From Morinoia aosen (lineage: Eukaryota > Arthropoda > Malacostraca > Amphipoda > Talitridae), in contig CM059579.1 of NCBI GenBank assembly GCA_030386875.1, positions 18,634,484 to 18,698,483 on the forward strand: DNA of 64,000 nucleotides, given 5' to 3'. Positions 13,001-61,495 of this stretch are shown one piece after another (the stretch's first letter is position 1; each line of letters starts with the position of its first letter). The position numbers were made by a program, and so were the translations under genes. The notes below the pieces were generated by a model that was not told the DNA's origin, made no database searches, and worked only from the letters and a program-made list of their open reading frames with translations.

Positions 13001-13445
13001 TGTGTCAGCAGCAGGCTGGTGTGTCAGCAGCAGACTGGTGTGTCAGCAGCAGACTGGTGTGTCAGCAGCAGACTGGTGTGTCAGCAGCAGACTGGTGTGT
13101 CAGCAGCAGACTGGTGTGTCAGCAGCAGACTGGTGTGTCAGCAGCAGGCTGGTGTGTCAGCAGCAGACTGGTGTGTCAGCAGCAGACTGGTGTGTCAGCA
13201 GCAGACTGGTGTGTCAGCAGCAGATTGGTGTGTCAGCAGCAGACTGGTGTGTCAGCAGCAGACTGGTGTGTTAGCAGCAGACTGGTGTGTCAGCAGCAGA
13301 CTGGTGTGTCAGCAGCAGACTGGTGTGTCAGCAGCAGACTGGTGTGTCAGCAGCAGACTGGTGTGTCAGCAGCAGACTGGTGTATCAGCAGCAGACTGGT
13401 GTATCAGCACCAGACTGGTGTGTCAGCAGCAGACTGGTGTGTCAC
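13001..13445 (+). repeat. 19-bp minisatellite, about 23 copies
   Basis: The unit is GGTGTGTCAGCAGCAGACT (19 bp), very homogeneous with few substitutions (for example GGCTGG and TTAGCAGC variants). It degenerates over the last copies before 13445. Since 19 is not a multiple of three and the unit lacks stops, all three forward frames stay open and read a 19-residue super-repeat containing SAADWCVSSRLVC. I regard these readings as artefacts of the repeat. Confidence 0.95.
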
Positions 13446-13599
13446 TAGCAAAGAAGTTTGGACAAACGGAAGAATATTTTCTTACCTCTTTAAAGAATTA
13501 ACCTATTGCTTCAAAATCAAATATTTTAAACCTTCAGTCAGTTCAAATATTGCCATTTCACCTCGTAAATACGACCAGCGTCGTCCTAAATTTACATTC

Positions 13600-14895
13600 T
13601 CACAGAAATTTCACGCAACAAAATATCACACAGAAGTTTTACTCGACAAATGTTACACAAAAATTTGCGGAACCAATATCACGCAGGAATCTTACACAAC
13701 ATATATCTTACAGAAGTTTAAGACACAAAAGTCTTACTCGGCAAATATTATACAGAAATTTATTCAGCAAATATTACGCGGAAGTCTCACTGAGTAAACA
13801 TCACACAGAAGTCTCACTGAGTAAACATCACTCAGAAATCACACTCAGCAAACATCACACAGAAGTCTCACTCAACAAACATCACACAGAAGTCTCACTC
13901 AACAAACATCACACAGAAGTCTCACTCAGCAAACATCACACAGAAGTCTCACTCAACAAACATCACACAGAAGTCTCACTCAGCAAACATCACACAGAAT
14001 TCTCACTCAACAAACATCACACAGAAGTCTCACTCAACAAACATCACACAGAAGTCTCACTCAGCAAACATCACACAGAAGTCTCACTCAATAAACATCA
14101 CACAGAAGTCTCACTCAACAAACATCACACAGAAGTCTTACTCAGCAAACATCACACAGAAGTCTCACTCAACAAACATCACACAGAAGTCTCACTCAGC
14201 AAACATCACACAGAATTCTCACTCAACAAACATCACACAGAAGTCTCACTCAACAAACATCACACAGAAGTCTCACTCAATAAACATCACACAGAAGTCT
14301 CACTCAGCAAACATCACACAGAAGTCTCACTCAACAAACCTCACACAGAAGTCTCACTCAACAAACATCACACTGAAGTCTCACTCAACAAACATCACAC
14401 AGAAGTCTCACTCAACAAACATCACACAGAAGTCTCACTCAAAAAACATCACCCAGAAGTCTCACTCAACAAACATCACACAGAAGTCTCACTCAACAAA
14501 CATCACACAGAAGTCTCACTCAACAAACATCACACAGAAGTCTCACTCAGCAAACATCACACAGAAGTCTCACTCAACAAACATCACACACAATTCTCAC
14601 TCAACAAACATCACACAGAAGTCTCACTCAGCAAACATCACACAGAAGTCTCACTCAACAAACATCACACAGAAGTCTCACTCAACAATCATCACACAGA
14701 AGTCTCACTCAACAAACATCACACAGAAGTCTCACTCAACAAACATCACACAGAAGTCTCACTCAACAAACATCACACAGAAGTCTCACTCAACAAACAT
14801 CACACAGAAGTCTCACTCAACAAACATGACACAGAAGTCTCACTCAGCAAACATCACACACAATTCTCACTCAACAAACATCACACAAAAATCTT
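13600..14895 (+). repeat. 27-bp minisatellite, about 41 regular copies plus a decayed left edge
   Basis: The regular part (13782-14895) repeats ACTCAACAAACATCACACAG followed by AAGTCTC. The two common versions differ at one base (CAACAAA or CAGCAAA). Because 27 is a multiple of three, one frame reads a continuous 457-codon ORF (13550-14923) of the nonapeptide HHTEVSLNK or HHTEVSLSK. From about 13600 to 13780 the units are heavily diverged but still recognisable. There is no signal peptide and no non-repetitive domain, so a protein product is doubtful. Confidence 0.92.
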
Positions 14896-23722: not shown

Positions 23723-26700
23723 AGGGTCATCTCATGGGGGAGGGTAACGAGGGTCACTGTGGTGATGGGGAAGGACAGACGAGGGTCACTGTGGTGATGG
23801 GGAAGGGAAACGAGGGTCACTGTGGTGATGGTGGAGAGAAACGAGGGTCACTGTGGTGATGGTGGAGGGAAACGAGGGTCACTGTGGTGATGGTGGAGAG
23901 AAACGAGGGTCACTGTGGTGATGGGGAAGGGAAACGAGGGTCACTGTGGTGATGGTGGAGGGAAACGAGGGTCGCTGTGGTGATGGTGGAGGGAAACGAG
24001 GGTCACTGTGGGGATGGTGGAGGGAAACGAGGGTCGCTGTGGTGATGGTGGAGGGAAACGAGGGTCACTGTGGGGATGGTGGAGGGAAACGAGGGTCACT
24101 GTGGGGATGGTGGAGGGAAACGAGGGTCACTGTGGTGATGGTGGAGAGAAACGCGGGTCACTGTGGTGATGGTGGAGGGAAACGAGGGTCGCTGTGGTGA
24201 TGGTGGAGAGAAACGAGGGTCACTGTGGTGATGGTGGAGAGAAACAAGGGTCACTGTGGTGATGGTGGAGGGAAACGAGGGTCGCTGTGGTGATGGTGGA
24301 GAGAAACGAGGGTCACTGTGGTGATGGTGGAGGGAAACGAGGGTCACTGTGGTGATGGTGGAGAGAAACGAGGGTCACTGTGGTGATGGTGGAGGGAAAC
24401 GAGGGTCACTGTGGTGATGGTGGAGGGAAACGAGGGTCACTGTGGTGATGGTGGAGGGAAACGAGGGTCACTGTGGGGATGGTGGAGGGAAACGAGGGTC
24501 ACTGTGGGGATGGTGGAGGGAAACGAGGGTCACTGTGGTGATGGTGGAGAGAAACGAGGGTCACTGTGGTGATGGTGGAGGGAAACGAGGGTCGCTGTGG
24601 TGATGGTGGAGAGAAACGAGGGTCACTGTGGTGATGGTGGAGGGAAACGAGGGTCACTGTGGTGATGGTGGAGGGAAACGAGGGTCGCTGTAGTGATGGT
24701 GGTGGGAAACGAGGGTCGCTGTGGTGATGGTGGAGGGAAACGAGGGTCGCTGTGGTGATGGTGGAGAGAAACGAGGGTCACTGTGGTGATGGTGGAGGGA
24801 AACGAGGGTCACTGTGGGGATGGTGGAGGGAAACGAGGGTCGCTGTGGTGATGGTGGAGGGAAACGAGGGTCACTGTGGGGATGGTGGAGAGAAACGAGG
24901 GTCACTGTGGGGATGGTGGAGGGAAACGAGGGTCACTGTGGGGATGGTGGAGGGAAACGAGGGTCACTGTGGTGATGGTGGAGAGAAACGAGGGTCACTG
25001 TGGTGATGGTGGAGAGAAACGAGGGTCACTGTGGGGATGGTGGAGGGAAACGAGGGTCACTGTGGGGATGGTGGAGGGAAACGAGGGTCACTGTGGGGAT
25101 GGTGGAGGGAAACGAGGGTCACTGTGGGGATGGTGGAGGGAAACGAGGGTCACTGTGGTGATGGTGGAGAGAAACGAGGGTCACTGTGGTGATGGTGGAG
25201 GGAAACGAGGGTCGCTGTGGTGATGGTGGAGAGAAACGAGGGTCACTGTGGTGATGGTGGAGAGAAACGAGGGTCACTGTGGTGATGGTGGAGGGAAACG
25301 AGGGTCGCTGTGGTGATGGTGGAGAGAAACGAGGATCACTGTGGTGATGGTGGAGGGAAATGAGGGTCACTGTGGTGATGGTGGAGAGAAACGAGGGTCA
25401 CTGTGGTGATGGTGGAGGGAAACGAGGGTCGCTGTGGTGATGGTGGAGAGAAACGAGGGTCACTGTGGTGATGGTGGAGGGAAACGAGGGTCGCTGTGGT
25501 GATGGTGGAGGGAAACGAGGGTCGCTGTGGTGATGGTGGAGAGAAACGAGGGTCACTGTGGTGATGGTGGAGGGAAACGAGGGTCACTGTGGGGATGGTG
25601 GAGGGAAACGAGGGTCGCTGTGGTGATGGTGGAGGGAAACGAGGGTCACTGTGGGGATGGTGGAGGGAAACGAGGGTCACTGTGGGGATGGTGGAGGGAA
25701 ACGAGGGTCACTGTGGTGATGGTGGAGGGAAACGAGGGTCACTGTGGTGATGGTGGAGGGAAACGAGGGTCACTGTGGTGATGGTGGAGGGAGACGAGGG
25801 TCACTGTGGTGATGGTGGAGGGAAACGAGGGTCGCTGTGGTGATGGTGGAGGGAAACGAGGGTCACTGTGGTGATGGTGGAGGGAAACGAGGGTCACTGT
25901 GGTGATGGTGGAGGGAGACGAGGGTCACTGTGGTGATGGTGGAGGGAAACGAGGGTCACTGTGGTGATGGTGGAGGGAAACGAGGGTCACTGTGGTGATG
26001 GTGGCGGGAAACGAGGGTCACTGTGGTGATGGTGGAGAGAAACGAGGGTCACTGTGGTGATGGGGTAAACGAGGGCCACTGTGGTGATGGGGAAGGACAG
26101 ACGAGGGTCACTGTGGTGATGGGGAAGGGAAACGAGGGTCACTGTGGTGATGGTGGAGAGAAACGAGGGTCACTGTGGTGATGGTGGAGGGAAACGAGGG
26201 TCACTGTGGGGATGGTGGAGGGAAACGAGGGTCACTGTGGTGATGGTGGAGGGAAACGTGGGTCACTGTGGTGATGGTGGAGGGAAACGAGGGTCGCTGT
26301 GGTGATGGTGGCGGGAAACGAGGGTCGCTGTGGTGATGGTGGCGGGAAACGAGGGTCACTGTGGTGATGGTGGAGGGAAACGAGGGTCACTGTGGTGATG
26401 GTGGAGGGAAACGAGGGTCACTGTGGTGATGGTGGAGGGAAACGAGGGTCACTGTGGTGATGGTGGAGGGAAACGAGGGTCACGGTGGTGATGGTGGAGG
26501 GAAACGAGGGTCACTGTGGTGATGGTGGCGGGAAACGAGGGTCACTGTGGTGATGGTGGAGAGAAACGAGGGTCACTGTGGTGATGGGGTAAACGAGGGC
26601 CACTGTGGTGATGGGGAAGGACAGACGAGGGTCACTGTGGTGATGGGGAAGGGAAACGAGGGTCACTGTGGTGATGGTGGAGAGAAACGAGGGTCACTGT

Positions 26701-27134
26701 GGTGATGGTGGAGGGAAACGAGGGTCACTGTGGGGATGGTGGAGGGAAACGAGGGTCACTGTGGTGATGGTGGAGGGAAACGAGGGTCACTGTGGTGATG
26801 GTGGAGGGAAACGAGGGTCGCTGTGGTGATGGTGGCGGGAAACGAGGGTCGCTGTGGTGATGGTGGCGGGAAACGAGGGTCACTGTGGTGATGGTGGAGG
26901 GAAACGAGGGTCACTGTGGTGATGGTGGAGGGAAACGAGGGTCACTGTGGTGATGGTGGAGGGAAACGAGGGTCACTGTGGTGATGGTGGAGGGAAACGA
27001 GGGTCACGGTGGTGATGGTGGAGGGAAACGAGGGTCACTGTGGTGATGGTGGAGGGAAACGAGGGTCACTGTGGTGATGGTGGAGGGTAAACGAGGGTCA
27101 CTGTGGTGATGGTGGAGGGAAACGAGGGTCGCTG
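23723..27134 (+). repeat. 31-bp minisatellite, about 110 copies (3.4 kb)
   Basis: The unit is GAGGGTCACTGTGGTGATGG followed by TGGAGGGAAAC (31 bp). Frequent variants are CGCTG for CACTG, GGGGATGG for GGTGATGG, GAGAGAAAC for GAGGGAAAC, and a GGGGAAGGACAGAC form near both ends. The plus strand is G-rich. With a period of 31 nt, several frames on both strands stay open and give glycine-rich or histidine/proline-rich readings; these are not credible proteins. The first copies (23723-23800) are irregular, and the right end stops abruptly at a putative LTR. Confidence 0.97.
26061..27108 (+). repeat. Near-identical 524-bp duplication inside the 31-bp array
   Basis: The distinctive sequence TGGGGTAAACGAGGGCCACT occurs at 26061 and again at 26585. 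It is followed by the same order of variant units (GGACAGAC, GGGAAGGG, GAGAGAAAC, two GGCGGGAAAC units, then a CACGGTGG unit). One difference is evident (CGTGGG against CGAGGG). It is a recent higher-order duplication or an assembly duplication. Confidence 0.85.
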
Positions 27135-28746
27135 TGTTGCGATACAGAGAAGAGGGTGGGTTTAGGACCCCCTTTCCATACGCTGAGGGAATTGCAACCC
27201 CCACACATGTTATAGTATTATCCTTTATGCTTGCGTACACCTGCATACCAGACATGGAGAATAAAAGAGTTATTAAGATTTACATTAATTTATTGGGAAA
27301 CACGTTTATAAACACACAAGGCATGGGAACGAAATGATTTGAAAGGGCACTGACATAAATGTGATGCTTACCGAAAATTCGAATTACACATACTCCTTCG
27401 CTGACAACGATTTACGCGTACACAAAACAGCCGGCTCCACAGTAACACAAATCATAATATTTGCGAGAATAACACATCACGATTTAACCTGGAATTGTGA
27501 CACGGTGTCGAATCATACAACGGGAAGTCGATTCTCGACTTAATAAACACAGGAAATCGATTGCCTATAAATTAGATGATTCTTCACGATACTTTGAAAA
27601 ACACTTTTCTGTGTGCTGATCTACATCCGAAATTGAACTTCAATCACCACCTAAAAGAGCTCTCACAACTATAACACTCGCCAAGTGCTAACACTTTTCT
27701 GTGTGTAACTCTCCATTTTCAATTTGCACTTAAGAGCTCTCGTTTTCCGAATTCTCCCTGCCGACAACTATACACTTTCCCCTCTGCTGTGACGTGCGGC
27801 TGCAGCTGACCTAATTCCATTCCATGGATGCTGGATTCCTCTTCAATTCTGAAGCCTATACGCGGACTAAGTCGTCTCTTCTCGTTCGGCGATGCTGCGG
27901 CCGGCCGGCCTGGCTGTGCTTGCGCTCGGGTTGAGAAATGCGACGCCACGCCTGCCCGCCACTGCAGAGCTCTCAGCGCCCGACATTACTGCTGGCTTGA
28001 AGATAAACGTGGACAATTGTCTTGCTGGAGAAGGCGGAGTTGTTGCGAATTCGGAGTTGATATAGGAGCAAATGGAATGCTTTCTGTAGAATTGTTGACA
28101 CCTTGACGCTTGTCGATTAATACCGCGCAGCTGAGGTGCTTCGAACGACTCCGGGTGCACGTTAGTACTTTGAAGTTTGCTGATACACTGGACGCCTCCT
28201 CTCGAAACTTCGATGGTTAACTTTCGCTTTGGATGTTGGATTTTAGCTGCTCATGTCGAAAGTTTGCAGTCAACACCAGACTTGGTATTATGCCGGGTAA
28301 TACCGGCATCTGCCGGTATTCCGGCTGCAAAACACCTCCTTGATTATGCGTCTCTCTCTCGTAGCGTCACCGAGCCGAAAATCCCTCACGAGTCTCCATC
28401 TACCCTCCTTATATATGCGCGTCTCGTATCCTTCTCGAATGTTCACGAATATTCGCAGTTACAATGACAGCATTTTACAGCTGATTGGAGGAATTCTTCC
28501 TTGTCCTGACGTCTCGAAATTTCATTGGCTAGGTGCCCGCTTTCTTGTGCCACACCTTCTCGCGTGATCGCTTGGCAAGCGTTCATTGGTGTAGATGTTG
28601 CGGCTTTTGTTTAAGGCCAACCCTCGTATCGCGCCTTCGTGCGAGGCCTGTTCCCATGCCCAAGCGACGGCCGGCTTAACGGCTTATACATTCCAACGTC
28701 TATCGCAGTTTTTCTCGCGCTTTTACCTATAACTGGCCCCGCAACA
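27135..28746 (+). mobile_element. Putative solo LTR of an LTR retrotransposon, about 1.6 kb
   Basis: The segment starts TGTTGCG and ends CGCAACA, a perfect 7-bp terminal inverted repeat of the TG...CA type seen in LTRs. It sits between two blocks of the same 31-bp satellite. Inside are an AATAAA at about 27261, a TATA-type TTATATATG at 28409-28417 about 340 bp before the end, and a strong hairpin at 28292-28325. No primer-binding site, gag/pol ORF or partner LTR is present, which would make it a solo LTR. No clean target-site duplication is seen. Alternatively it is unique sequence whose ends match by chance. A Bel/Pao or Gypsy assignment cannot be made here. Confidence 0.4.
28292..28325. repeat. 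GC-rich perfect-stem hairpin
   Basis: GCCGGGTAATACCGGC and GCCGGTATTCCGGC face each other around a 4-nt loop (ATCT). The stem is complete except for a 2-nt bulge. It lies inside the putative LTR, about 85 bp upstream of its TATA-like motif. Confidence 0.8.
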
Positions 28747-29091: not shown

Positions 29092-29773
29092 CTGTGGTGA
29101 TGGTGGAGGGAAACGAGGGTCACTGTGGTGATGGTGGAGGGAAACGAGGGTCACTGTGGTGATGGTGGGGGGAAACGAGGGTCACTGTGGTGATGGTGGA
29201 GGGTAAACGAGGGTCACTGTGGTGATGGTGGAGGGAAACGAGGGTCGCTGTGGTGATGGTGGAGGGAAACGAGGGTCACTGTGGTGATGGTGAAGGGAAA
29301 CGAGGGTCACTGTGGTGATGGTGGAGGGAAACGAGAGTCACTGTGGTGATGGGGAAGGGAAACGAGGGTCACTGTGGTGATGGTGGAGGGAAACGAGGGT
29401 CACTGTGGTGATGGGGAAGGGAAACGAGGGTCACTGTGGGGATGGTGGAGAGAAACGAGGGTCACTTTGGGGATGGGGAAGGGAAACGAGGGTCACTTTG
29501 GGGATGGGGAAGGGAAACGAGGGTCACTGTGGTGATGGGGAAGGGAAACGAGAGTCACTGTGGTGATGGTGGAGGGAAACGAGGGTCACTGTGGTGATGG
29601 TGGAGGGAAACGAGGGTCACTGTGGTGATGGTGGAGGGAAACGAGGGTCACTGGGGTGATGGTGGAGGGAAACGAGGGTCACTGTGGTGATGGTGGAGGG
29701 AAACGAGGGTCACTGTGGTGATGGTGGCGGGAAACGAGGGTCACTGTGGTGATGGGGAAAACGAGGGTCACTG
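29092..29773 (+). repeat. 31-bp minisatellite, second block, about 22 copies
   Basis: Same unit as the 23.7-27.1 kb array, starting mid-unit at CTGTGGTGATGG. It is richer in the GGGGAAGGGAAAC variant and includes a CACTTTGGGGATGGGG form absent from most of the first block. The right edge decays within one unit (CACTGCTGTAAT). Confidence 0.95.
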
Positions 29774-31570: not shown

Positions 31571-34094
31571 GACCAGAGCAGCGTGTTACAGTGACCAGAG
31601 TAGCGGGATACACTGACCAGAGCAGCGTGTTACAGTGACCAGAGTAGCGGGATATAGTGATCAGAGCAGCGGGATACAGTGACCTGAGCAGCGGGATATA
31701 GTGACCTGAGCAGCAGGTTACAGTGACCAGAGCAGCGGGATGTAGTGATCAGAGCAGCGGGATACAGCGACCAGAGCAGCGGGATATAGTGATCAGAGCA
31801 GCAGGTTACAGTGACCAGAGCAGCGGGATGTAGTGATCAGAGCAGCGTGTTACAGTGACCAGAGCAGCGGGATACAGTGACCAGAGCAGCGTGTTACAGT
31901 GACCAGAGCAGCGGGATATAGTGATCAGAGCAGCGGGATACAGTGACCTGAGCAGCGGGATACAGTGACCAGAGCAGCGGGATATAGTGACCAGAGCAGC
32001 GGGATATAGTGACCAGAGCAGCGGAAGATAGTGATCAGAGCAGTGGGTCACGGTGACCGGAGCAGCGGAATATAGCGATCAGAGCAGCGGGTTACAGTGA
32101 CCGGAGCAGCGGGATATAGTGACCAGAGGAGCGGGTTACAGTGACCAGAGAAGCGGAATATAGTGACCAGAGCAGCGGGATATAGTGACCAGAGCAGCGG
32201 GATATAGTGACCATGCAGAGCAGCGGGATATAGTGATCAGAGCAGCGGGTTACAGTGACCACAGCAGAGGAATATAGTGACCAGAGCATCGGGGTATAGT
32301 GATCAGAGCAGCGGGTTACAGTGACCAGAGCAGCGGGATATAGTGACCAGAGCAGCGGGTTACAGTGACCAGAGCAGCGGGATATAGTGACCTGAGCAGC
32401 GGGTTACAGTGACCAGAGCAGCGGGATATAGTGACCAGAGCAGCGGGTTACAGTGACCAGAGCAGCGGGATATAGTGACCAGAGCAGCGGGTTACAGTGA
32501 CCAGATCAGCGGGATATAGTGACCAGAGCAGCGGGATACAGTGACCAGAGCAGCGGGATACAGCTGACCAGAGCAGCGGGATATAGTGACCAGAGGAGCG
32601 GGTTACAGTGACCACAGCAGCGGGTTACAGTGACCACAGCAGCGGAATATATAGTGACCAGAGCATCGGGGTATAGTGATCAGAGCAGCGGGTTACAGTG
32701 ATCAGAGCATCGGGGTATAGTGACCAGAGCAGCGGGACCGGATACAGTGACCAGAGCAGCAGGATATAGTGACCAGAGCAGCGGGATGTAGTGACCAGAG
32801 CAGCGGGATGCAGTGACCAGAGCAGCGGGATACAGTGACCAGAGCAGCGGGATACAGTGACCAGAGCAGCAGGATACAGTGACCAGAGCACCGGGATACA
32901 GTGACCAGAGCAGCGGGATATAGTGACCAGAGCAGCAGGATACAGTGACCAGAGCAGCAGGATACAGTGACCAGAGCAGCGGGATACAGTGACCAGAGCA
33001 GCGGGATATAGTGACCAGAGCAGCGGGATACAGTGACCAGAGCAGCGGGATATAGTGACCAGAGCAGCAGGATATAGTGACCAGAGCAGCAGGATACAGT
33101 GACCAGAGCAGCGAGATATAGTGACCAGAGCAGCGGGATACAGTGACCAGAGCAGCGGGATACAGTGACCAGAGCAGCGGGATATAGTGACCAGAGCAGC
33201 AGGATATAGTGACCAGAGCAGCAGGATACAGTGACCAGAGCAGCGGGATACAGTGACCAGAGCAGCGGGATATAGTGACCAGAGCAGCAGGATATAGTGA
33301 CCAGAGCAGCAGGATACAGTGACCAGAACAGCGGGATACAGTGACCAGAGCAGCGGGATACAGTGACCAGAGCGGCGGGATACAGTGACCAGAGCAGCGG
33401 GATACAGTGACCAGAGCAGCAGGATACAGTGACCAGAGCAGCGGAATACAGTGACCAGAGCAGCGGGATATAGTGACCAGAGCAGCGGGATACAGTGACC
33501 AGAGCAGCGGGATACAGTGACCAGAGCAGCAGGATACAGTGACCAGAGCAGCAGGATACAGTGACCAGAGCAGCGGGATACAGTGACCAGAGCAGCAGGA
33601 TACAGTGACCAGAGCAGCAGGATATAGTGACCAGAGCAGCAGGATACAGTGGCCAGAGCAGCAGGATACAGTGACCAGAGCAGCGGGATACAGTGACCAG
33701 AGCAGCAGGATACAGTGACCAGAGCAGCGGAATACAGTGACCAGAGCAGCGGGATATAGTGACCAGAGCAGCGGGATACAGTGACCAGAGCAGCGGAATA
33801 CAGTGACCAGAGCAGCGGGATATAGTGACCAGAGCAGCGGGATATAGTGACCAGAGCAGCGGGATACAGTGACCAGAGCAGCAGGATACAGTGACCAGAG
33901 CAGCAGGATACAGTGACCAGAGCAGCAGGATACAGTGACCAGAGCAGCGGGATACAGTGACCAGAGCAGCAGGATACAGTGACCAGAGCAGCGGGATACA
34001 ATGACCAGAGCAGCGGGATACAGTGACCAGAGCAGCGGAATACAGTGACCAGAGCAGCGGGATATAGTGACCAGAGCAGCGGGATATAGTGACC
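31571..34094 (+). repeat. 22-bp minisatellite, about 115 copies (2.5 kb)
   Basis: The unit is GTGACCAGAGCAGCGGGATA plus TA or CA. The left part (31571-32700) is more variable, with GATCAG and GGTTACA variants. From about 32310 to 32520 GGATATA and GGTTACA units alternate as a 44-bp dimer. The right part (32740-34094) is homogeneous. Overlapping minus-strand ORFs of 537 and 470 codons (32625-34238 and 32702-34114) read a 22-residue super-period containing CSGHCIPLLWSLYPAALVTV. The second frame reads the same period because 22 is not a multiple of three. I treat them as artefacts. Confidence 0.97.
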
Positions 34095-34181
34095 AAGCCA
34101 GCCGATCGATACAACTCGAGAGCCGTGTCGCCTGCCTCTCCTACGACACTCCGCAGTCCTTAGCATTACAGCACTAGATAC

Positions 34182-34230
34182 TTCTCTCGCCTCTCTCGCC
34201 TCTCTCGCCTCTCTCGGCTCCTCGGCTCCT
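34182..34230 (+). repeat. 10-bp CTCTCTCGCC repeat
   Basis: Four near-perfect CTCTCTCGCC units, then two CTCCTCGG variants. It lies just after the 22-bp array. Confidence 0.85.
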
Positions 34231-34321
34231 CTTTCCACACGTTCTCCTGAGCAACATTATTGACCTTCTTTCTTCATCCGACCTCACGGTGTTGTGATGT
34301 TGGTTTTCCTGTGATTTGTAC

Positions 34322-34925
34322 TTCGTGCCAACCTTGTTGTGTGTGTGCATTGTGTACAACTTGTTACGTCTGTATAATGTTTACTCCGTGTTGTGTGTGT
34401 ACATTGTGTACACCTTGTTACGTCTGTATAGTGTTTACTCCGTGTTGTGTGTGTACATTGTGTACACCTTGTTACGTCTGTATAGTGTTTACACCTTTTT
34501 GTGTGTGTATATTGTGCACACCTTGTTACGCCTGTATAGTGTTTACACCGTGTTGTGTGTGTACATTGTGCACACTGTGTTACGTCTGTATAGTGTTTAC
34601 ACCTTGTTGTGTGTGTATATTGTGTACACCTTGTTACGTCTGTATGTCATGCATGTACAGCTTGTGTCTGTACATAGTGTACAAATTTTCTGTACATCGT
34701 GCACAGCTTGTGTCTGTACATTGTGTACACCTCCTTACGTCTATACGTCGAGTACAGCTTATTTTCTGTACATTTTGTACACCTTATTACGTCTAATTAC
34801 TCTTCTCAACTCGTGTCTGTACATCGTGTACACCTTATTACGTCAGTATATTGTGTATCCCTTGCATATGTACGTTGTGTACATCATGTTATGTTTGCAC
34901 ATTGTGTACGTCTTGTTATATATGA
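34322..34925 (+). repeat. 54-bp minisatellite built on a 27-bp half-unit
   Basis: The first six copies repeat every 54 bp: GTGTGTACATTGTGTACACC, TTGTTACGTCTGTATAGTG and TTTAC blocks. Right of about 34640 the period drops to about 27 bp (TCTGTACATTGTGTACACC-type units), and the copies diverge strongly towards 34925. Since 54 and 27 are multiples of three, one frame reads a 204-codon tyrosine/valine/leucine-rich sequence and another a cysteine-rich one. No known family is recognised. Confidence 0.9.
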
Positions 34926-42496: not shown

Positions 42497-42876
42497 ATAG
42501 TATAGATACCCCTCAGGGGGATACAGCTATTGTATCTATGGGAATTAGCGCTCCCAGGGGGATAATGTGAGGGCCCAAGCTAAAGGTTAGGTAGGCTTTC
42601 TTTTTGTTAAAATAGAATCGGTTTTTGTTTTGTTACTGACCATCTTTTTTCATTTCACTGCTGTCCTGTTTTTCAGCACCTACTACTTTCTTCTTCAACT
42701 TTGGTCTTGTTTCATGAACTTCTTTCTCATCTTACTGTTTCTATGCCATTACTGCATAGATTCCGCGTTCCCTTAACTCCATACTAAATGGTGCCTTCTT
42801 CCTTCTTTCTTTGGATTTCATTTGTTGAGGATAGGGAGGCTTAAACTAACTGATAATCTAATCCATAGTATCGATA
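42497..42876 (+). mobile_element. Short retroposon copy 1 with target-site duplication
   Basis: The body is 42509-42864 (356 bp), from CCCCTCAGGGGGATACA to a decayed TAA-type tail (AACTGATAATCTAATCC). It is flanked by ATAGTATAGATA (42497-42508) and ATAGTATCGATA (42865-42876), a 12-bp target-site duplication with one mismatch. It is close to 90 percent identical by eye to the copy at 48495-48859. No ORF and no tRNA-type A or B box were found. The target-site duplication plus A/T-rich simple tail indicate mobilisation by a non-LTR retrotransposon. Confidence 0.8.
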
Positions 42877-48480: not shown

Positions 48481-48873
48481 ATGTAAACTTCTGTCCCCTC
48501 AGGGGGATACAACTATTGTATCTATGGGAACTAGCGCTCCCAGGGGGACTATGTGAGGGCCTGAGCTAAAGGTTAGGTAGGCTTCCTTTTTGTTGTAATA
48601 AAATAGGTTTTTGTTTTGTTACGGACCATCTTTTTTCGGTTCACTGCTGTCCTGTTTTTCAGCACCTACTACTTTCTTCTTCAACTTTTTTCTTGTTTCA
48701 TGAACTTCTTTCCTAGCTTACTGTTTCTGTGCACCTTGTGCATAGATTCCGCATTCCCCCAACTCCATACTAAATGGTGCCTTCCTCTTTCCTCTCTTGG
48801 AACATCTTTGTCGTGGTTAAGGGAAGCTAAAACTTTCTTATATAATAATAATAATAATAATGTAAACTTCCGT
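48481..48873 (+). mobile_element. Short retroposon copy 2 with target-site duplication and (TAA)n tail
   Basis: The body is 48495-48859 (365 bp), beginning CCCCTCAGGGGGATACAAC and ending in a run of TAA triplets. The flanks ATGTAAACTTCTGT (48481-48494) and ATGTAAACTTCCGT (48860-48873) form a 14-bp target-site duplication with one mismatch. The 5' end coincides exactly with that of copy 1 at 42509, so this is a defined short unit and not a random 5' truncation. The first 60 bp contain the inverted words CCCCT..AGGGGG and GCTCCC..GGGGG, which could fold. A (TAA)n tail is known for I-clade and some other non-LTR retrotransposons; the partner LINE is not in this window. Confidence 0.85.
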
Positions 48874-48973: not shown

Positions 48974-49925
48974 CGCATATCCCCCAGCACTACCCAACAT
49001 CCCCACACATCCCCAGCACCACCCAACATCCCCACACATCCCCAGCACCACCCAACACCCCCACACATCCCCAGCACCACCCAACATCCCCACACATCCC
49101 CAGCACCACCCAACATCCCCACACATCCCCCAGCACCACCCAACATCCCCACACATCCCCAGCACCACCCAACATCCCCACACATCCCCCAGCACCACCC
49201 AACACCACCACACATCCCCAGCACCACCCAACATCCCCACACATCCCCCAGCACCACCCAACATCCCCACACATCCCCCAGCACCACCCAACATCCCCAC
49301 ACATCCCCAGCACCACCCAACACCACCACACATCCCCAGCACCACCCAACACCCCCACACATCCCCAGCACCACCCAACATCCCCACACATCCCCCAGCA
49401 CCACCCAACATCCCCACACATCCCCAGCACCACCCAACATCCCCACACATCCCCAGCACCACCCAACATCCCCACACATCCCCAGCACCACCCAACACCC
49501 CCACACATCCCCAGCACCACCCAACACCCCCACACATCCCCAGCACCACCCAACATCCCCACACATCCCCCAGCACCACCCAACATCCCCACACATCCCC
49601 AGCACCACCCAACATCCCCACACATCCCCCAGCACCACCCAACATCCCCACACATCCCCAGCACCACCCAACACCACCACACATCCCCAGCACCACCCAA
49701 CACCCCCACACATCCCCAGCACCACCCAACATCCCCACACATCCCCCAGCACCATCCAACATCCCCACACATCCCCCAGCACCACCCAACATCCCCACAC
49801 ATCCCCAGCACCACCCAACATCCCCACACATCCCCCAGCACCACCCAACATCCCCACACATCCCCAGCACCACCCAACACCCCCACACATCCTCAGCACC
49901 ACCCAATATCCCCACACATCCCCAT
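48974..49925 (+). repeat. C-rich 29/30-bp minisatellite, about 32 copies
   Basis: The unit is CAGCACCACCCAACATCCCC followed by ACACATCCC(C), with a 4C or 5C run making it 29 or 30 bp. A few units carry CACC for CATC. The plus strand is nearly free of G. The mixed unit length shifts frame along the array, yet no frame contains stops, so long threonine/proline/histidine-rich (plus) and glycine/tryptophan/cysteine-rich (minus) readings of 300 codons or more appear in several frames at once. The minus strand has three or four G-runs per unit. Confidence 0.97.
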
Positions 49926-51360
49926 CTCCACTCAATATTCCACGCGGCTCCCAGTCTCCTGACAAGCGACGGTGGGGCAAGAAATTCCGCTCACGCATCA
50001 CTTCCGAATGCATTCCAAAGGGCTTCTTAAAATTCAGAAAATTCGGCGCCGGTGTTTTTTTGGCGGACGTAAAAAGGCTTCTTTACGGCTGCGGCGCGCG
50101 GCTCTCATTGGCCACGGCTCTCTACGGCTGCAGTTCATGGCTCATTAATGCAATCATTCATCAAATGCTCCGAGCATCCGAATTTCATGTCTCGAGAGAT
50201 CGATTCTGAGTTGAAGTCGCACGGCCTCTGCATACGTTTGTCTCTCTCTCTGTGTATAGTTATCACTTGAGGTCTTTCAACATTTTTTTTAAAGTGTGAA
50301 ATGTTGTGTTTAGGCTCATTTCTGTCATTAGTGCTGTGCATTAAAGACCCTTCGCCTGCAGGTATTTTATCTTGCATTTCTACACTGCATTGCTTCATTT
50401 TTTCTCATGCTGGAGCTTAAATTTATGTAATTCATAAAGTAATCTAGAATATTAATCGAAAACTTTTCCATCACTGTAACTCGATACATTAGTGATACAT
50501 TCCTACTCGATTCCTACTACTCGATACATTAGTGACCGTAAACTATTTGCAATGTTAGTAAAAAGTTCATCATTAATATCCCATCGGTGCACTTGGAATA
50601 GACATTTCTGTATAGAAGCACTCCCATTTTGGCTTAAACACCGAGAGCACAACGCTGCCATGGGTATTCATCTCAGGTGACCTATAAGATGCGCATGCTT
50701 CAGTTGTCCCAGCTGTTATGATACGCTCAAGTACAGAATCTCTACGCGTTTACATGCTTTAGGAAGTATATGAACGGAAATGCTAAGTTAGCGATTTTAT
50801 CCCATTGGACACATTAAAAAATCCAAAGCTGCTCTTATCCAATCAATATCTTCTATACATGATGGTTATCAGAATGACAGCGCTTGCATCAAACACTATT
50901 CGAAATGATCGCCCTCGCGAATATGAAACAAATATCATATTTAAATCCCCACCCTTTTTTTGTACGTACACAAAGTGCTCTCCAAAATACATACTCCACC
51001 CAAAGGACTTAGCCACAAAAGTTCACTTCGCCCTGCAAGACACTCACTCATTAGACGGACAAAGAGCAAGCACTAGCGAGGCGATGGTGGCGGTGCATCA
51101 TGACCACCATCACACAATCGAGTCTTGTATCTGTCGCCAAGTGATCGCTGCCTCGTCCATCCCCTTCAGAGTATTTGCCTTTTCTTTCTGTCCCTCGCGA
51201 CCGCACCTCTTCTCTCCTCACACGCCCCACCTCCTCGTTTCATCTCCCTCAAGGAACCCTCACAACAAAACCCTCGTTTTTTGTCCCCCGCCCCGCCCCC
51301 CGCGACCCCCTCGGCTCTCATCCCCTCCCCAAAATCGATGCGTTGACCAGACCTCCTATC
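49926..51360. other. Non-coding sequence, pyrimidine-rich on the right
   Basis: A 215-codon plus-strand ORF (50805-51452) runs from unique sequence through a C/T-rich tract (51170-51350) into the next array. It shows no domain and its C-terminal part is repeat, so I do not call a gene. CpG-rich sequence lies at 50040-50120. Confidence 0.45.
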
Positions 51361-52852
51361 GCGACACTGACGCCTCTACACTGACGCCTGCACACGACGC
51401 CTCTACACTGACGCCTCTACACGACGCCTCTACACTGACGCCTCTACACTGACGCCTCTACACGACGCCTCTACACTGACGCCTCTACACTGACGCCTGC
51501 ACACGACGCCTCTACACTGACGCCTCTACACGACGCCTCTACACTGACGCCTCTACACTGACGCCTGCACACGACGCCTCTACACTTACGCCTCTACACG
51601 ACGCCTCTACACTGACGCCTCTACACTGACGCCTCTACACGACGCCTCTACACTGACGCCTCTACACGACGCCTCTACACTGACGCCTCTACACGACGCC
51701 TCTACACTGACGCCTCTACACTGACGCCTCTACACTGACGCCTCCACACGACGCCTGTACACTAACGCCTCCACACGACGTCTCTACACTGACGCCTCTA
51801 CACTGACGCCTCCACACACGCCTCTACACTGACGCCTCTACACTGACGCCTCTACACGACGCCTCTACACTGACGCCTCTACACTGACGCCTCCACACGA
51901 CGCCTCCACACGACGCCTCCACACGACGTCTCTACACTGACGCCTCTACACTGACGCCTCCACACGACGCCTCTACACTGACGCCTCTACACTGACGCCT
52001 CCACACGACGCCTCTACACTGACGCCTCTACATGTTGCCTCCATATGACGCCTCTACACTGGCGCCTCTACACTGACGCCTCCACACGACGCCTCCACAC
52101 GATGCCTCCACACGACGCCTCCACACGACGCCTCTACACTGACGCCTCCACACGACGCATCTACACTGACGCCTCTACACTGACGCCTCCACACGACGCC
52201 CCCACACGACGCCTCTACACTGACGCCTCCACTCGACGCCTCCACACGACACCTCCACGCACACGACACCTCCACACGACGTCTTTACACTGACGCCTCC
52301 ACACTGACGCCTCCACACGACGCCTCCACACTGACGCCTTTACACTGATGCCTCTACACTGACGCCTCCACACGACGCCTCTTCACTGACGGCTCCACAC
52401 GACGCCTCTACACTGACGCCTCCACACTGACGCCTCTACACTGACGCCTCCACACGACGCCTCTTCACTGACGGCGCCACACGACGCCTCTACACTGACG
52501 CCTCTACACTGACGCCTCTACACTGACGCCTCCACACTGACGCCTCCACACTGACGCCTCTACACTGACGCCTCTACACTGACGCTTTTACACTGACGCC
52601 TCTACACTGACGCCTCCACACGACGCCTCCACACTGACGCCTCCACACGACGCCTCCACACTGACGCCTCTACACTGACGTCTCTACACTGACGCCTCTA
52701 CACTGACGCCTCTACACTGACGCCTCTACACTGACGCCTCTACACTGACCTCTCTACACTGACGCCTCTATACCGACGCACCTAGACTGACGCCTCTACA
52801 CTGACGCCTGTACACTGACGCCTCTACACTGACGCCTCTACACTGACGTCAC
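51361..52852 (+). repeat. 13/14-bp minisatellite, about 108 copies (1.5 kb)
   Basis: GACGCCTCTACACT (14 bp) alternates irregularly with GACGCCTCTACAC or GACGCCTCCACAC (13 bp). Left of about 51720 the CTCTAC form dominates. In the middle CTCCAC forms cluster, and at the right (52640-52850) the 14-bp CTCTACACT form dominates again. Most units carry one CpG. Confidence 0.96.
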
Positions 52853-53396: not shown

Positions 53397-54582
53397 GTTG
53401 CTATTGTGGTGATGTTGTGGTGTTTTTTTGGTGATGCTCTGATGATGTTGTGGTGATGTTGTGGTGATGTTGTGGTGATGTGGTGTTTTTTGGTGATGCT
53501 CTGATGATGTTGTGGTGATGTTGGGACTATGTTGTGGTGATGTTGTGGTGATGTGGTGATGATGTTGTGGTGATGTTGTGGTGTTTTTTTGGTGATGCTC
53601 TGATGATGTTGTGGTGATGTTGTGGTGTTTTTTTGGTGATGCTCTGATGATGTTGTGGTGATGTTGTGGTGATGTTGTGGTGATGTGGTGTTTTTTGGTG
53701 ATGCTCTGATGATGTTGTGGTGATGTTGTGGTGATGTGGTGATGATGTTGTGGTGATGTTGTGGTGTTTTTTTGGTGATGCTCTGATGATGTTGTGGTGA
53801 TGTTGTGACTATGTTGTGGTGATGTTGTGACTATGTTGTGGTGATGTTGTGCTGATGATGTGATGACGGTTGTGGTGATGTTGCGGTGATGTTTTGGTGA
53901 TGTTGTGGTGATGTTGTAGTGATGTGGTGATGTTGTGGTAATGTTGCTGTGATGTTGTAGTGATGTTGCGGTGATGTTGTGGTGATGTTGTGGTGATGTT
54001 GTGATGATGTTGTGGTGATGTTGTGGTGATGTTGTGGTGATGTTGCGGTGATGTTGTGGTGATGTTGTGATGATGTTGTGGTGATGTTGCTGTGATGTTG
54101 TAGTGATGTTGCGGTGATGTTGTGGTGATGTTGTGGTGATGTTGTGATGATGTTGGGGTGATGTTGTGATGATGTTGTAATGATGTTGTGGTGATGTTGT
54201 AGTGATGTTGTGGTGATGTTGTGATGATGTTGCTGTGATGTTGTAGTGATGTTGCGGTGATGTTGTGGTGATGTTGTGATGATGGTGTGATGATGTTGTG
54301 GTGATGATGTGGTGATGTTGTGGGGATGTTGTGCTGATGATGTGATAACGGTTGTGGTGATGTTGTGGGGACGTTGTGCTGATGGTGTGACGATGTTGCA
54401 ATGGTGTTCTGGTGATGTTGTGATGATGTTGTGCTTATGTTGTGACGATATGTTGTGGTGGAGTTATGGTGATGTGCTGATGTTTTGGTGATGTTGCAGT
54501 GTTGTGATGATATTGTGCTGATGTTGTACTAATGTTGTACTAATGTTGGCTGATGTGCTGATGTTGTGGTGATGTTGTAGGG
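53397..54582 (+). repeat. 11-bp minisatellite (GGTGATGTTGT), about 1.2 kb, with a higher-order left part
   Basis: The basic unit GGTGATGTTGT is repeated with substitutions such as GCGGTG, GTAGTG and GTGATGATG. From 53415 to 53790 a longer block (GGTGTTTTTTTGGTGATGC, then TCTGATGATGTTG) recurs about six times at varying spacing, forming a higher-order repeat. The right part (after 54290) decays. The 336-codon minus-strand reading rich in histidine/threonine (period 11 residues) is an artefact. Confidence 0.94.
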
Positions 54583-55015
54583 AAGTCAGGGTGCAGTCGT
54601 CAGAGGTGATGCCGATGTTACTGTCTGCCGTTCGTCACGACGCCCTGCAGCGGCAGACACGCAGCACCACACGCACTGCTGCAGCTGATCAGTTCCGTCA
54701 ATTTTACTCGTGTACTTAGCAATTATTTATGCATGTTACAGTAGCAATTACAGTCGCAACAAACGTTATCATACATTAGGTATGTATGTATATGTATGTG
54801 TAAGAAAGGCAACTTCTGTGCGATTTGTGTAGTTGGCCGAATTCTGTACCTGCTTCCGATGTCGTGCACGTGTGAAGTAATCCATCTGAGTGTCTTTTGT
54901 AACGAGAGTTTCTCTTTTTTGAGTCAAATTCTGGTCATGGCTGTCTAATCACCTTGTTTGTGATTAAATTTCACTTCGTTTTCAAAATTTCTTCGCTAAC
55001 AAGCGAAGTACTCAC
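54583..55015. other. Unique sequence between satellite and candidate promoter
   Basis: No ORF of note except the intron side of the candidate exon described next. The stretch around 54630-54690 is rich in CTGCAG/CAGC words. Confidence 0.5.
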
Positions 55016-55066
55016 CTTTTTACGAACCCATTTAGGGAAGGAATAGATTGTGTTTTGAGGTGCCAT
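55016..55066 (-). CDS. Candidate first coding exon, 17 codons, with a strong 5' splice site
   Basis: On the minus strand an ATG at 55066 opens MAPQNTIYSFPKWVRKK and reaches AAAAAG|GTGAGTACTT at 55016/55015, a near-consensus 5' splice donor in phase 0. The exon is 51 nt. Directly upstream on the same strand lies the CCAAT-box array (55072-55477), as expected for a promoter plus a short leader. However, one CCAAT box is only a few bases before the ATG, so transcription would have to start farther upstream. No downstream exon was identified left of 55015 and the peptide is not recognised. An upstream in-frame ATG at 55225 would lengthen it through the CpG-rich promoter sequence and seems less likely. 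Confidence 0.22.
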
Positions 55067-55071
55067 GTCAT

Positions 55072-55477
55072 CCAATAGGAGAGGCGCGGCGGTGACCTGC
55101 GGCACTCGTTTGCACCGCCTGATGAATGTAGCCAATGGGCGTCCAGGACTGGCACTCGAGGAGAGAAATTTCTCACCTTGCCTCGCGCGCCGCCAATGAA
55201 CGCGCTCCCTGCGTCTGACTTTCACACATTGGGTGTGAAAACTTGCACCTCGCTCCCATCTACCAATAGGAAGCGCGCGACTTATCAGCTTTCACACATT
55301 GGGTGTGAAAATTATCACTTTACAGTCTCAACCAATACGCACAGAGTATTTGATGAGCTCTTACGCAATGGGTGTGAAACGACGCACCTCGTGAGACTGA
55401 ACCAATGGCCTAGCTAGTGCGAAGATTTGATCACGCAGGTGTCGTGCGTATAGGCGCGCCAAACGCCAATGACCAAT
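55072..55477. promoter_or_regulatory. Phased array of CCAAT boxes in alternating orientation
   Basis: CCAAT or ATTGG pentamers begin at 55072, 55132, 55193, 55228 (ATTGG), 55263, 55298 (ATTGG), 55332, 55402, 55466 and 55473. A one-base variant (AATGG) at 55367 fills the remaining gap. From 55193 to 55402 the steps are 35, 35, 35, 34, 35 and 35 bp and orientation alternates. The outer steps are 60, 61 and 64 bp. The context is CpG-rich, with GCGCGCC, GAGGCGCGGCGG and similar words. CCAAT is bound by the trimer NF-Y, and multiple CCAAT boxes about 31-35 bp apart are a known feature of several cell-cycle gene promoters. The array is a strong candidate promoter or enhancer, possibly bidirectional. 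Confidence 0.6.
55220..55427 (+). repeat. Three 70-bp modules with a T-box-like palindrome around each inverted CCAAT
   Basis: Modules start at 55220, 55290 and about 55359. Modules 1 and 2 open with TTTCACAC, then ATTGG, then GTGTGAAA, a perfect inverted repeat with the inverted CCAAT box as spacer. Module 3 keeps GGGTGTGAAA but has TCTTACGC on the left. The second CCAAT box of each module lies 35 bp downstream. Outside these boxes the modules differ considerably, which suggests the boxes are retained while the rest drifts. The half-site GGTGTGAAA equals the T-box core; the Brachyury palindrome uses a 4-nt centre, this one a 5-nt centre. Confidence 0.7.
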
Positions 55478-55523: not shown

Positions 55524-55637
55524 ATGGCCTCTTGTAATGTAACTAACGGATGCCAGAGGAATGGAAACGTTTCTGAACCTTTAAATAATGGTTTCCAAAT
55601 TTTTTTGGCGTCAAGTATTGTAACGCCGCTCAGCTGA
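55524..55637 (+). CDS. Possible 37-codon small ORF downstream of the CCAAT array
   Basis: Opens at AACAATGG (A at -3, G at +4, a favourable start context) about 45 bp after the last CCAAT box and a TATA-like GAATATATGAG (55483-55493). It reads MASCNVTNGCQRNGNVSEPL and stops at 55637. It has no known domain, signal peptide or splice donor that I can defend. If the array is a bidirectional promoter this could be the first ORF of a plus-strand transcript, but chance is quite possible. Confidence 0.12.
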   Translation: MASCNVTNGCQRNGNVSEPLNNGFQIFLASSIVTPLS

Positions 55638-58993: not shown

Positions 58994-59491
58994 GCCGCTG
59001 GCTGACAACTCCCAACTTAATCGCCTCGCTGCCTTTGTCTCGATCTCGCGAGAAAGAAGATACTCATCGGTCTCGCTTTGAGGCTGCAATTCACGATGAA
59101 AACCTGTGAAAGCGCTCTCTCTGGTATGCCACATGTACGTGTTCCCAGATGCCGCTAATGCGCTTTAAATTTGTTATTGTACAGAAATTCGTACGTTCTA
59201 GAATTTGTAACGCGTTTTTTTCCTATGTTTTTTGTAGAGCAGGCACCCACGCTTGCTGTGTTTGTAGTGAGCACACGACGCGTTGGATCGAGTATACCGA
59301 TATTACACCGATAAGACTCGTATATATATGTGTTTTAATTTATACGGTTATGGTCAGGTAATTCCTTAACGTTAGTCAAACATTGTGTATTATTTCCGTT
59401 CTCTTGCCTTCCTATTTAAAAATATATTTATATAAGTAGATGTGAGAAGCTTCCCTAAATTGATTGTTTGGGAAGGAAAATTATTTTCGGT
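58994..59491. other. Non-coding sequence, no gene seen
   Basis: CpG-rich to about 59060, AT-rich after. Short ORFs only. Confidence 0.5.
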
Positions 59492-60839
59492 GTAAATATG
59501 TATGGTAAATGTGTAGCGTTGGTCAGTAATCGATTTTCCACTTTTCGGTGCCTGAACCTAGTATATTAATAGAATCAAAATAAACAAGTTTTCTTCTATG
59601 CACTTTCCGTCTCAAATGAGTATTTTACGATTTATAGCGGTAAGTTTAGTTTCGTCTTTGATTACGATCGAATGCGCTCGAATAAACAGCTACTCATCGA
59701 TTTTCGAATTTTTGTTGGTTGAATCATGGTAATTACATCGAAATGAATAACTTTTCTTCTATACACTTTTTTCGTCAAATGAGTATTTAACGAGGTATAG
59801 CTGTGGGTTTGGTTTCGTCTGTGATGACGATCGCGCTGGAAGCGAGTGCGCATTGCAGTGTTGCGGTCCGACGTGCTCCTTGAACTACTTGCCGCTTCAA
59901 ACACTGGAGTTGCGGTAAGTTATTTACCGCTATAGCGAAAAAGAAAGAAGAAAAAAGAAAGAAAAATGTGTACTCGTATTTCCAAGTCGTCACATGTGAT
60001 ACATGCCAACATATTGGCTTTTAAAAGTTTCTTAATATAGGACATCCTAAAACAAATGTTCCATACGAGGAGTACTAATTGACAAACCATCCGAGGTGTA
60101 CAAGTAGATAAGCCATACGAGGCATAATAATAGACAAAATATACGAGGCCCACTAATAGACAAACCATTCGTGGTGTGCTAGTTGTCTAACAAAAGTTCT
60201 ATACTATATAGGAGTACTATATTGACAAACCATCCGAGGTGTACAAATATAGATAAGCCATACGAGGCATAATAATAGGCAAACTATACGAGGTGTACTA
60301 AGACAATTAAGCTATCAGAGGTGTACAAATAGATAGACCATACGAGGCAGATTAATAGACAAAATATACGAGGCATACTAATAGACAAACCATACGTGGC
60401 GTGCCAATAGTCTATCTCTGTCTAGGGTAGTTGAATGAGAAATGAAAAATATGCCCTAAAAATATGCAAAGCCCTATCACAACCAAAAACATATTTCATA
60501 TCTTCTCGATATTCACCACATCATATGCGGACATAGGTACATGGGATAAAATAGAGATACAGTGTAAGCCGGTTACCACTCATGATTGACAAATATCTAC
60601 AAAATATTGGTAGAAATGGGTAAACAAATATATACTCAATATCAAAATTCATAGCTTATACAACATACGGACAGAAAGATAATTTTACTACGATTCACAT
60701 GCGAATAAAATACTCATTTGAGACGGAAAGTGCATAGAAGAAAACTTGTTTATTTCGATCTAATTAACTACGATTAGACACCGAAAAGTGGAAAATCGAT
60801 TACTGACCAACGCTACACACTTACCATACGTATATTTAC
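59492..60839. mobile_element. Element of about 1.35 kb with long terminal inverted repeats
   Basis: The left arm (59492-59627) and the complement of the right arm (60700-60839) match closely. They share GTAAATAT..GTATGGTAA, GTGTAGCGTTGGTCAGTAAT, CGATTTTCCACTTTTCGGTG and TTCTTCTATGCACTTTCCGT followed by CTCAAATGAGTATTTTA. The left arm is followed by a second, diverged direct copy of its inner part (about 59693-59833), offset by about 163 bp. The interior has a purine run (59937-59966) and a 26-bp minisatellite. No transposase ORF is present. No clear target-site duplication was found. Confidence 0.7.
60053..60412 (+). repeat. 26-bp minisatellite in two blocks inside the inverted-repeat element
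   Basis: The unit is approximately GACAAACCATACGAGGTGTA plus CTAATA. GACAAACCATCCGAGGTGTA starts at 60081 and again at 60224, so a block of about 143 bp has itself been duplicated. Later units vary (CAGATTAATA, GCATACTAATA). Confidence 0.88.
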
Positions 60840-61495
60840 GGATTCGAGTACTGTTCATGTATATGTGCTCCTTAATCTACATGGACAATTACTCCTATGC
60901 ACGTACGTTAAAAATATACGAGCATTGTTTCCTTTTCATACGAAGGGATGGCGATTGTTTTCTTTTCATTTAAATTTGAAGTGATGCATTGTTTTCTTCT
61001 TAAATGAAGTGAAGTGACCAGCATGGTTCCTAAGAGGAAAATAGAGTTAATTATTAAATGGCGTGGGCTAAAACGAAGCCATCAGCATTAGTTTATAAAT
61101 GGATAGAGCAATCAACGCGATTTAGAAAACAAATGACAAGGCTGCTGGGTGACTCATCAGTGAAAGCAATGCACACGTGTAGGATAGCCCGTCAGAAATA
61201 GATAGCAGCCTTGCACTTCTTGCAATGGCGAGTGTCAAAATTGTTTCGAAATTTAAAAGAGAAGGAACAGGGAATTTACTCATTGTGTAATTGTTGAACC
61301 TTTACATACACCCATCTGTACATAAATGAGGAAGGGATTATGAGATTGTTTCATTTCGTGTTTGAAATGTGTACTGGCAACGTCTATTGTCGTATTTGAA
61401 CAATCGCGTAAAGATTTGTGGGTAAAGTCTATATTAATTTATTTGACACACCTTTTTTGCAAACTTGTTTGAAGCAATGATGTGATGTTTGGTGT
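60840..61495. other. Non-coding sequence, no gene seen
   Basis: Short ORFs only. Three similar TTGTTT(C/T)CTTTTCAT-type words occur at 60920-61000. Confidence 0.5.

Follow-up and report, generated by a model that had tools for sequence, protein, structure and literature searches.

Introduction

In a stretch of 64,000 nucleotides from the talitrid amphipod Morinoia aosen, ten CCAAT boxes crowd into about 400 bp, and the locus raises the question of what such an array is and which gene, if any, it serves. The whole stretch, referred to here as the window, was placed at C24:18634484-18698483 by a search of the 1.99-Gb genome (C24 stands for contig CM059579.1) and was studied together with flanks of 100 kb on each side, giving a locus of 264 kb in total. 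An earlier note on this DNA had taken the array, here called A1, for a strictly phased run of NF-Y sites in alternating orientation, reminiscent of G2/M and histone-type promoters. In what follows we describe the anatomy of A1, its gene surroundings and its recurrence, and we weigh the readings that these suggest. Comparisons with published work draw on parts of the papers cited.

A local cluster of CCAAT boxes

Ten exact CCAAT/ATTGG pentamers are indeed present in 406 bp at the positions first reported (55072+, 55132+, 55193+, 55228-, 55263+, 55298-, 55332+, 55402+, 55466+ and 55473+), eight of them forward and two reverse. The 34-35 bp stepping between 55193 and 55402 is equally real, the steps being 35, 35, 35, 34, 35 and 35 bp, and the box said to carry a single substitution is the AATGG at 55367. 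When 60 windows of 64 kb were simulated with a first-order Markov model and the maximum was taken over any 406 bp, the top counts were 4 to 7 boxes against the 10 observed; simulating the local 521 bp 5000 times never produced more than 6. By the measure of exact CCAAT pentamers above chance, A1 qualifies as an NF-Y-type cluster. Taken over its full length, the window has few CCAAT (85 occurrences versus a mean of 158 in shuffles), so the cluster is a local one.

The forward boxes follow one another at 60, 61, 70, 69, 70, 64 and 7 bp, thus mostly at 60-70 bp. A purine stands at -1 in seven of the eight forward boxes and in neither reverse box (both have C), compared with 35 of 75 elsewhere in the window; over the boxes of A1 and its two sister arrays, A2 and A3 (see below), the count is 15 of 19. 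NF-Y prefers a purine at -1, and mammalian NF-Y is selective about flanks (PMC6843132, in part). The minimum distance between two NF-Y is 24 bp (PMC4982600, in part), so the boxes at 55466 and 55473, 7 bp apart, are too close for two NF-Y together; judged by spacing, the forward boxes of A1 could otherwise be occupied jointly.

Tandem units and an inverted dyad

The array and its parts are as follows.

55072..55477 (C24:18689555-18689960), no strand: array A1, the whole CCAAT/T-box-like array; ten exact pentamers, cluster of RCCAAT and GGYGTSA
55072..55131, plus: module U-1, 60 bp; forward CCAAT at 55072, a weak one under NF-Y rules (T at -1); T-like sites not significant (P 0.58)
55132..55192, plus: module U0, 61 bp; forward AGCCAATGGG; similar to module V2 of A2
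55159..55178, no strand: degenerate everted T-box-like dyad AGGAGAGAAATTTCTCACCT, 27 bp past CCAAT; 17/20 to the consensus palindrome
55193..55262, plus: module U1, 70 bp; forward CCAAT at 55193
55220..55240, no strand: inverted dyad TTTCACAC-ATTGG-GTGTGAAA of U1; contains the reverse box 55228-55232, C at -1
55231..55250, no strand: everted T-box-like dyad GGGTGTGAAAACTTGCACCT of U1; 15/20
55263..55331, plus: module U2, 69 bp; forward CCAAT at 55263
55290..55310, no strand: inverted dyad of U2, same as that of U1; contains the reverse box 55298-55302, C at -1
55301..55320, no strand: everted dyad GGGTGTGAAAATTATCACTT of U2; 15/20
55332..55401, plus: module U3, 70 bp; forward CCAAT at 55332
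55359..55379, no strand: degenerate inverted dyad of U3, three arm mismatches; AATGG at 55367 for ATTGG, GGGTGTGAAA kept
55370..55389, no strand: everted dyad GGGTGTGAAACGACGCACCT of U3; 15/20
55402..55465, plus: module U4, 64 bp; forward AACCAATGGC; weak AGGTGT remnant at 55437, no significant T-like site (P 0.63)
55456..55463, minus: TTTGGCGC, which we take to be an E2F-type consensus; 12 matches in the window versus 6.0 expected, weak alone
55466..55477, plus: pair of forward boxes at a distance of 7 bp, CGCCAATGACCAATCAC

The 34-35 bp steps arise because positions 55193-55401 are made of three tandem units, of 70, 69 and 70 bp, each having one forward CCAAT and, 35 bp on, an ATTGG that is degenerate in unit 3. 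This ATTGG is the centre of the dyad TTTCACAC-ATTGG-GTGTGAAA, and both reverse boxes lie inside such dyads. When units 1 and 2 are compared without gaps, the core around ATTGG is identical at 23 of 24 positions, the stretch before it at 1 of 21 and the stretch after it at 7 of 19 (core versus rest, Fisher p = 1.2e-9, with 24-bp core limits drawn post hoc on an alignment already inspected). Core identity with unit 3 is 18/24 in either pair (Fisher p = 0.005 and 0.002). A uniformly decaying tandem repeat would not be expected to produce such a contrast between core and spacer. The earlier observation that box positions are kept while the intervening sequence is not holds for the spacer, where units 1 and 2 share 1 of 21 positions; the 24-bp cores around ATTGG, however, are kept too. 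Unit 3 has lost ATTGG and retained GGGTGTGAAA, indicating that the T-box-like half-site is better preserved there than the reverse CCAAT.

That the array is organised by strictly alternating, phased NF-Y sites is not supported, for three reasons: the reverse boxes lie in a T-box-like dyad with the disfavoured C at -1, unit 3 dropped ATTGG yet retained GGGTGTGAAA, and A2 and A3 differ from A1 in CCAAT spacing and orientation. A more fitting description of A1 is a series in which forward CCAAT boxes take turns with T-box-like dyads. The wider suggestion of a dense regulatory element fares better: the CCAAT cluster is non-random, mostly has the -1 purine and bears signs of constraint, which makes a regulatory element likely.

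The exact 21-mer dyad occurs twice in the 1.99-Gb genome, both times inside A1. GGTGTGAAA, which provides the GGTGT-core half-site of a T-box palindrome, is found three times in the window, always in A1, a count that 5 of 100 shuffles also reach. A head-to-head pair with a 4-bp centre was not found in A1, the centre being 5 bp in units 1 and 2 and the consensus shared among the arrays being everted.

Gene content around the array

Against Pfam, the 256 non-repeat stop-to-stop open reading frames (ORFs; 130 + 126) of at least 55 aa in the window yielded nothing convincing (best E 0.0075). From a pool of 672 non-repeat flank ORFs of at least 60 aa, 279 were scanned, namely all 211 of at least 85 aa and 68 of the 127 right-flank ORFs of 68-84 aa. 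Besides the T-box, they returned transposon domains and weak matches, the best being eIF3h_C at E 0.00099, below its cut-off. The T-box domain was hit by two ORFs (best E 3.9e-12), and a joined fragment of 238 aa best matches the TBX3-like proteins of the decapods Penaeus monodon (67%) and Palaemon carinicauda (78%). A reading frame and tblastn hits mark exons of this gene, tbx2/3 (optomotor-blind), on the minus strand; its start codon lies at C24:18588961, and the exons run leftward. It is the nearest recognised gene, about 100.6 kb to the left of A1 and transcribed away from it, a call that short exons may have escaped.

The proposal of a G2/M or histone-type promoter found no support, since no such gene was seen adjacent to A1 among the 256 window ORFs, where short exons could escape. 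As for a neighbouring cell-cycle gene, window matches to Pfam were at chance level, and a match to the replication factor Sld5 (E 0.012) was absent when 20 ORFs were rescanned singly. Three further candidates were rejected: a protein-coding array (the ORF at 55079-55414, plus strand, is without homologue), a structured RNA or tRNA (none found, and no Rfam match at gathering score), and a bacterial-type promoter (scan at chance level).

A1 might still be a promoter, perhaps a bidirectional one, from which NF-Y drives a transcript that is non-coding or has escaped recognition, its T-box likeness being secondary. CCAAT boxes favour promoters; GC content rises up to 0.51 over 400 bp versus 0.31-0.46 around A1; an E2F-type site stands at one end of the array; and ATGs flank it, one on the minus strand (55066-55064, 17 codons from an AG/GTGAGT donor-like site at 55015) and one on the plus strand at 55524, both putative and picked by eye. 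Such a promoter would, however, leave the two sister arrays and the tbx2/3 dyad unexplained, and neither a convincing Pfam match among the window ORFs nor an Rfam match at gathering score accompanies it, so that we hold this reading to be unlikely. The short ATG-initiated readings themselves (55010-55066, minus; 55524, plus; by eye) may have arisen by chance, or may mark the first exons of divergently transcribed RNAs.

Minisatellite arrays, mostly of 11-59 bp units, make up about one-fifth of the window (13001-14894, 23734-27136, 29092-29773, 31571-34918, 48982-49935, 51364-52848 and 53404-54578). A 300-bp repeat is present in two copies, 89% identical (42509-42808 and 48495-48794), and is at a guess SINE-like; positions 59487-60842 hold inverted repeats of 62-93 bp, 75-94% complementary and about 1 kb apart, around 26-bp tandem repeats, perhaps a non-autonomous DNA transposon. 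The domains found in the flanks include RVT_1, RNase_H and endonuclease, and two retrotransposon-like reading frames were assigned there by reading (pieces L012:3661-5835 and L022:5683-7295, both minus).

Two sister arrays

With A1 masked, the best blastn match to it in the 264 kb is A2 (C24:18612819-18612772; 75% over 48 bp, E 1.8e-4). The match joins U0 of A1 to V2 of A2 with a score of 24; the highest of 200 shuffles scored 11. In A2, three units, each about 60 bp long, carry CCAAT, and two of them also contain AGGTGTCACATTTCACRCC. A3, at C24:18745890-18746003, was detected by a seven-module profile (E 0.005 and 0.007). When the 264 kb are searched for at least two RCCAAT and at least two GGYGTSA per 200 bp, motifs and limit that were picked after the arrays had been seen, exactly three clusters appear, namely A2, A1 and A3, lying 24, 101 and 157 kb upstream of tbx2/3 and separated by 77 and 56 kb in a region poor in recognised genes.

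Controls rarely gave as many clusters. Reversed motifs gave none despite more sites (240 versus 179), a Markov null gave a mean of 0.33 and a maximum of 1 in 40 runs, and letter-permuted motif pairs gave at least three clusters in 3 of 400 cases. With CCAAT kept and the T motif reordered, 2 of 300 orderings gave at least three: the true motif and AGGTGYS, which overlaps the T core and yields four. Over A1-A3, GCCAATGG is found 5 times versus 0.006 expected and GTGTGAAA 7 times versus 0.06 expected, each of them in all three arrays. The three arrays could be non-functional local duplicates, a reading taken up below.

A shared everted palindrome and the tbx2/3 upstream region

Eight modules from the three arrays (U0-U3, three A2 units and one A3 stretch, with U-1, U4 and the other A3 sequence left out) align to AGGTGTGAAATTTCACACC, an everted pair of AGGTGTGAAA half-sites. 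A scan of the 264 kb with AGGTGTGAAATTTCACACCT returns nine sites at 15/20 or better, four in A1, two in A2, two in A3 and one at C24:18589622, which is 661 bp upstream of the tbx2/3 start codon. Circularity affects seven of these sites, which belong to the modules chosen to build the consensus, while one A3 site and the tbx2/3 site come from outside the alignment. Permuted half-sites (n = 100), a lenient control in that they are unfitted to the sequence, gave a mean of 1.15 and a maximum of 5 sites versus 9.

Outside A1, the top match to a profile built from U1-U3 only is the site upstream of tbx2/3 (E 0.015). There, GGGTGTGAAAATTATCA of U2 is matched at 16 of 17 positions (blastn E 3.2 for that match alone), and GGGTGTGAAA occurs four times in the 264 kb, three times in A1 and once at this site, the single one at 15/20 or better that links the upstream region to the arrays. 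A weaker everted dyad, 14/20, lies at C24:18589172, 211 bp above the start codon (14 such dyads exist in the 264 kb), and the upstream region has one CCAAT-type box (ATTGG) at -541. In a profile scan of 49 sequences (348 kb, with L001, L002 and L030-L032 left out), the eight modules and a copy of A3 score 26-42 bits and all else below 18, eight of these nine high scorers having built the model.

The half-sites resemble those of T-box proteins, which prefer a GGTGT core (PMC3485041, in part). Drosophila Midline selects CAAGGTGTCAAGGCG and AGGTGTCA-like sites (PMC3485041, in part), in agreement with the GGTGTCA half-sites of A2 and A3, and T-box specificities are alike in fly and human (PMC4362205, in part). 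The everted dyad might nevertheless be bound by another factor, such as a nuclear receptor of NR1J/Hr96 type or an insulator protein, in which case the arrays would be tethering or boundary elements and not autoregulatory enhancers. Fly Hr96 binds tail-to-tail half-sites of GT(G/T)CA type (PMC4362205, in part), and the wide separation of the arrays among few recognised genes would suit such elements, but GGTGTGAAA and GGTGTCA are closer to T-box sites (PMC3485041 and PMC4010391, in part), and we give this possibility a rather small weight. The insulator-related words examined around A1 were of the GAGA and PHO types only.

Genome-wide occurrence and the minisatellite question

The core pattern with at most one mismatch is not enriched genome-wide (303 places versus 641 for the reversed control). 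Perfect matches number 12, three in A2/A3, one in the copy of A3 and eight elsewhere. Among 30 of the 303 places, 4-5 CCAAT stand within 200 bp at the four A2, A3 and A3-copy loci, compared with 0-2 at the remaining 26. The A3 copy, at C24:20513902, is a recent segmental duplication on the same contig at a distance of 1.77 Mb (96.6% over 2.57 kb); its array, 91-98% identical per 100-bp stretch, has been preserved no better than the flanks. One border of this duplication is a repeat seen three times in the 264-kb locus. A duplication of the whole locus was rejected as the origin of the copy, the position expected for A1 by simple offset (2.4 kb) having short repeat matches only, where insertions could shift it. 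A dispersed repeat or LTR was likewise rejected, the exact 21-mer core being found in the genome only at the A1 locus, and so was a viral origin, the exact core being absent from viral contigs.

A function-free, locally duplicated and diverging minisatellite-like repeat, with CCAAT present by chance, would account for the tandem units of A1 in a locus full of minisatellites. A repeat near C24:18782287, in which CCAAT recurs every 15 bp, packs 19 boxes into about 400 bp, which makes CCAAT density alone a poor guide and such a repeat a source of spurious CCAAT arrays, and A3 itself was copied by segmental duplication. What speaks against such a repeat is the contrast between cores (23/24) and spacers (1/21; Fisher p 1.2e-9), together with the recurrence of both motifs at three places tens of kb apart, and we regard it as quite improbable.

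Comparison with known systems

Among the 25 bilaterian-conserved segments described by Frith and Ni (2023) are a Tbx3 enhancer and a promoter segment of Tbx2/3 in which an ATTGG is conserved (PMC10735318, in part). CCAAT boxes recur in deeply conserved developmental control DNA. Compared by description, A1 resembles the Tbx2/3 segment as tbx2/3-associated DNA with CCAAT; it differs in lying about 100 kb upstream, not at the transcription start, and in having multiple units with T-box-like dyads.

Like NF-Y CCAAT-dimer promoters, A1 has several CCAAT boxes at compatible distances, but those promoters have direct repeats with a peak at 31 bp and harmonics of 10-11 bp (PMC4982600, in part), whereas the forward boxes of A1 stand mostly 60-70 bp apart, with the 34-35 bp partners reverse and preceded by C. 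None of the forward spacings listed above places A1 in the 31-bp class. The arms TTTCACAC and GTGTGAAA, identical in units 1 and 2, recall the palindromic T-site of Brachyury, which has a 4-bp centre, CTAG (PMC4010391, in part), unlike the 5-bp ATTGG centre of A1 and the everted form of the three arrays. Tandem CCAAT boxes are also known from human LTR12-type repeats (PMC4982600, in part); these are dispersed, unlike the exact core dyad of A1. Our literature search, to which subscription papers were largely closed, found no description of CCAAT/T-box arrays at tbx2/3 or of alternating CCAAT arrays.

Proposed explanation and significance

Taking motif content, anatomy and position together, we see about an even chance that A1 belongs to a set of three or more distal cis-regulatory modules that serve crustacean tbx2/3, of an NF-Y/T-box kind and probably auto- or cross-regulated by T-box proteins. 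The arrays would repeat a composite of about 60-70 bp, in which a CCAAT suited to NF-Y is followed downstream by an everted (tail-to-tail) pair of T-box half-sites, and the 70-bp units of A1 would have an extra head-to-head T-box arm overlapping the reverse ATTGG. NF-Y on the strong boxes may keep the segment nucleosome-free. The dyads may be bound by T-box proteins, the simplest candidate being Tbx2/3 itself, or another member of the family, and such binding could feed back on tbx2/3, whose upstream region has the same dyad. The binding proteins, the direction of effect and the target are inferred from the sequence, tbx2/3 being assigned as target by proximity only.

More tentatively, and with appreciably less confidence, we suggest that CCAAT plus the everted T-box dyad AGGTGTGAAATTTCACACCT, in units of 60-70 bp, is a previously undescribed composite that forms a shared code, present upstream of tbx2/3 and in three or more arrays spread across more than 150 kb, by which a T-box protein and NF-Y might autoregulate tbx2/3 or join distal elements to its promoter.

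The regulatory logic of developmental genes can seldom be read from sequence alone. In the present case a code appears to be shared by three arrays and the region upstream of tbx2/3, and half of it would be recognised by the protein family of that very gene. If true, this would provide a directly testable autoregulatory grammar for crustacean tbx2/3, and it would point to tandem unit duplication as a way to build a distal element.
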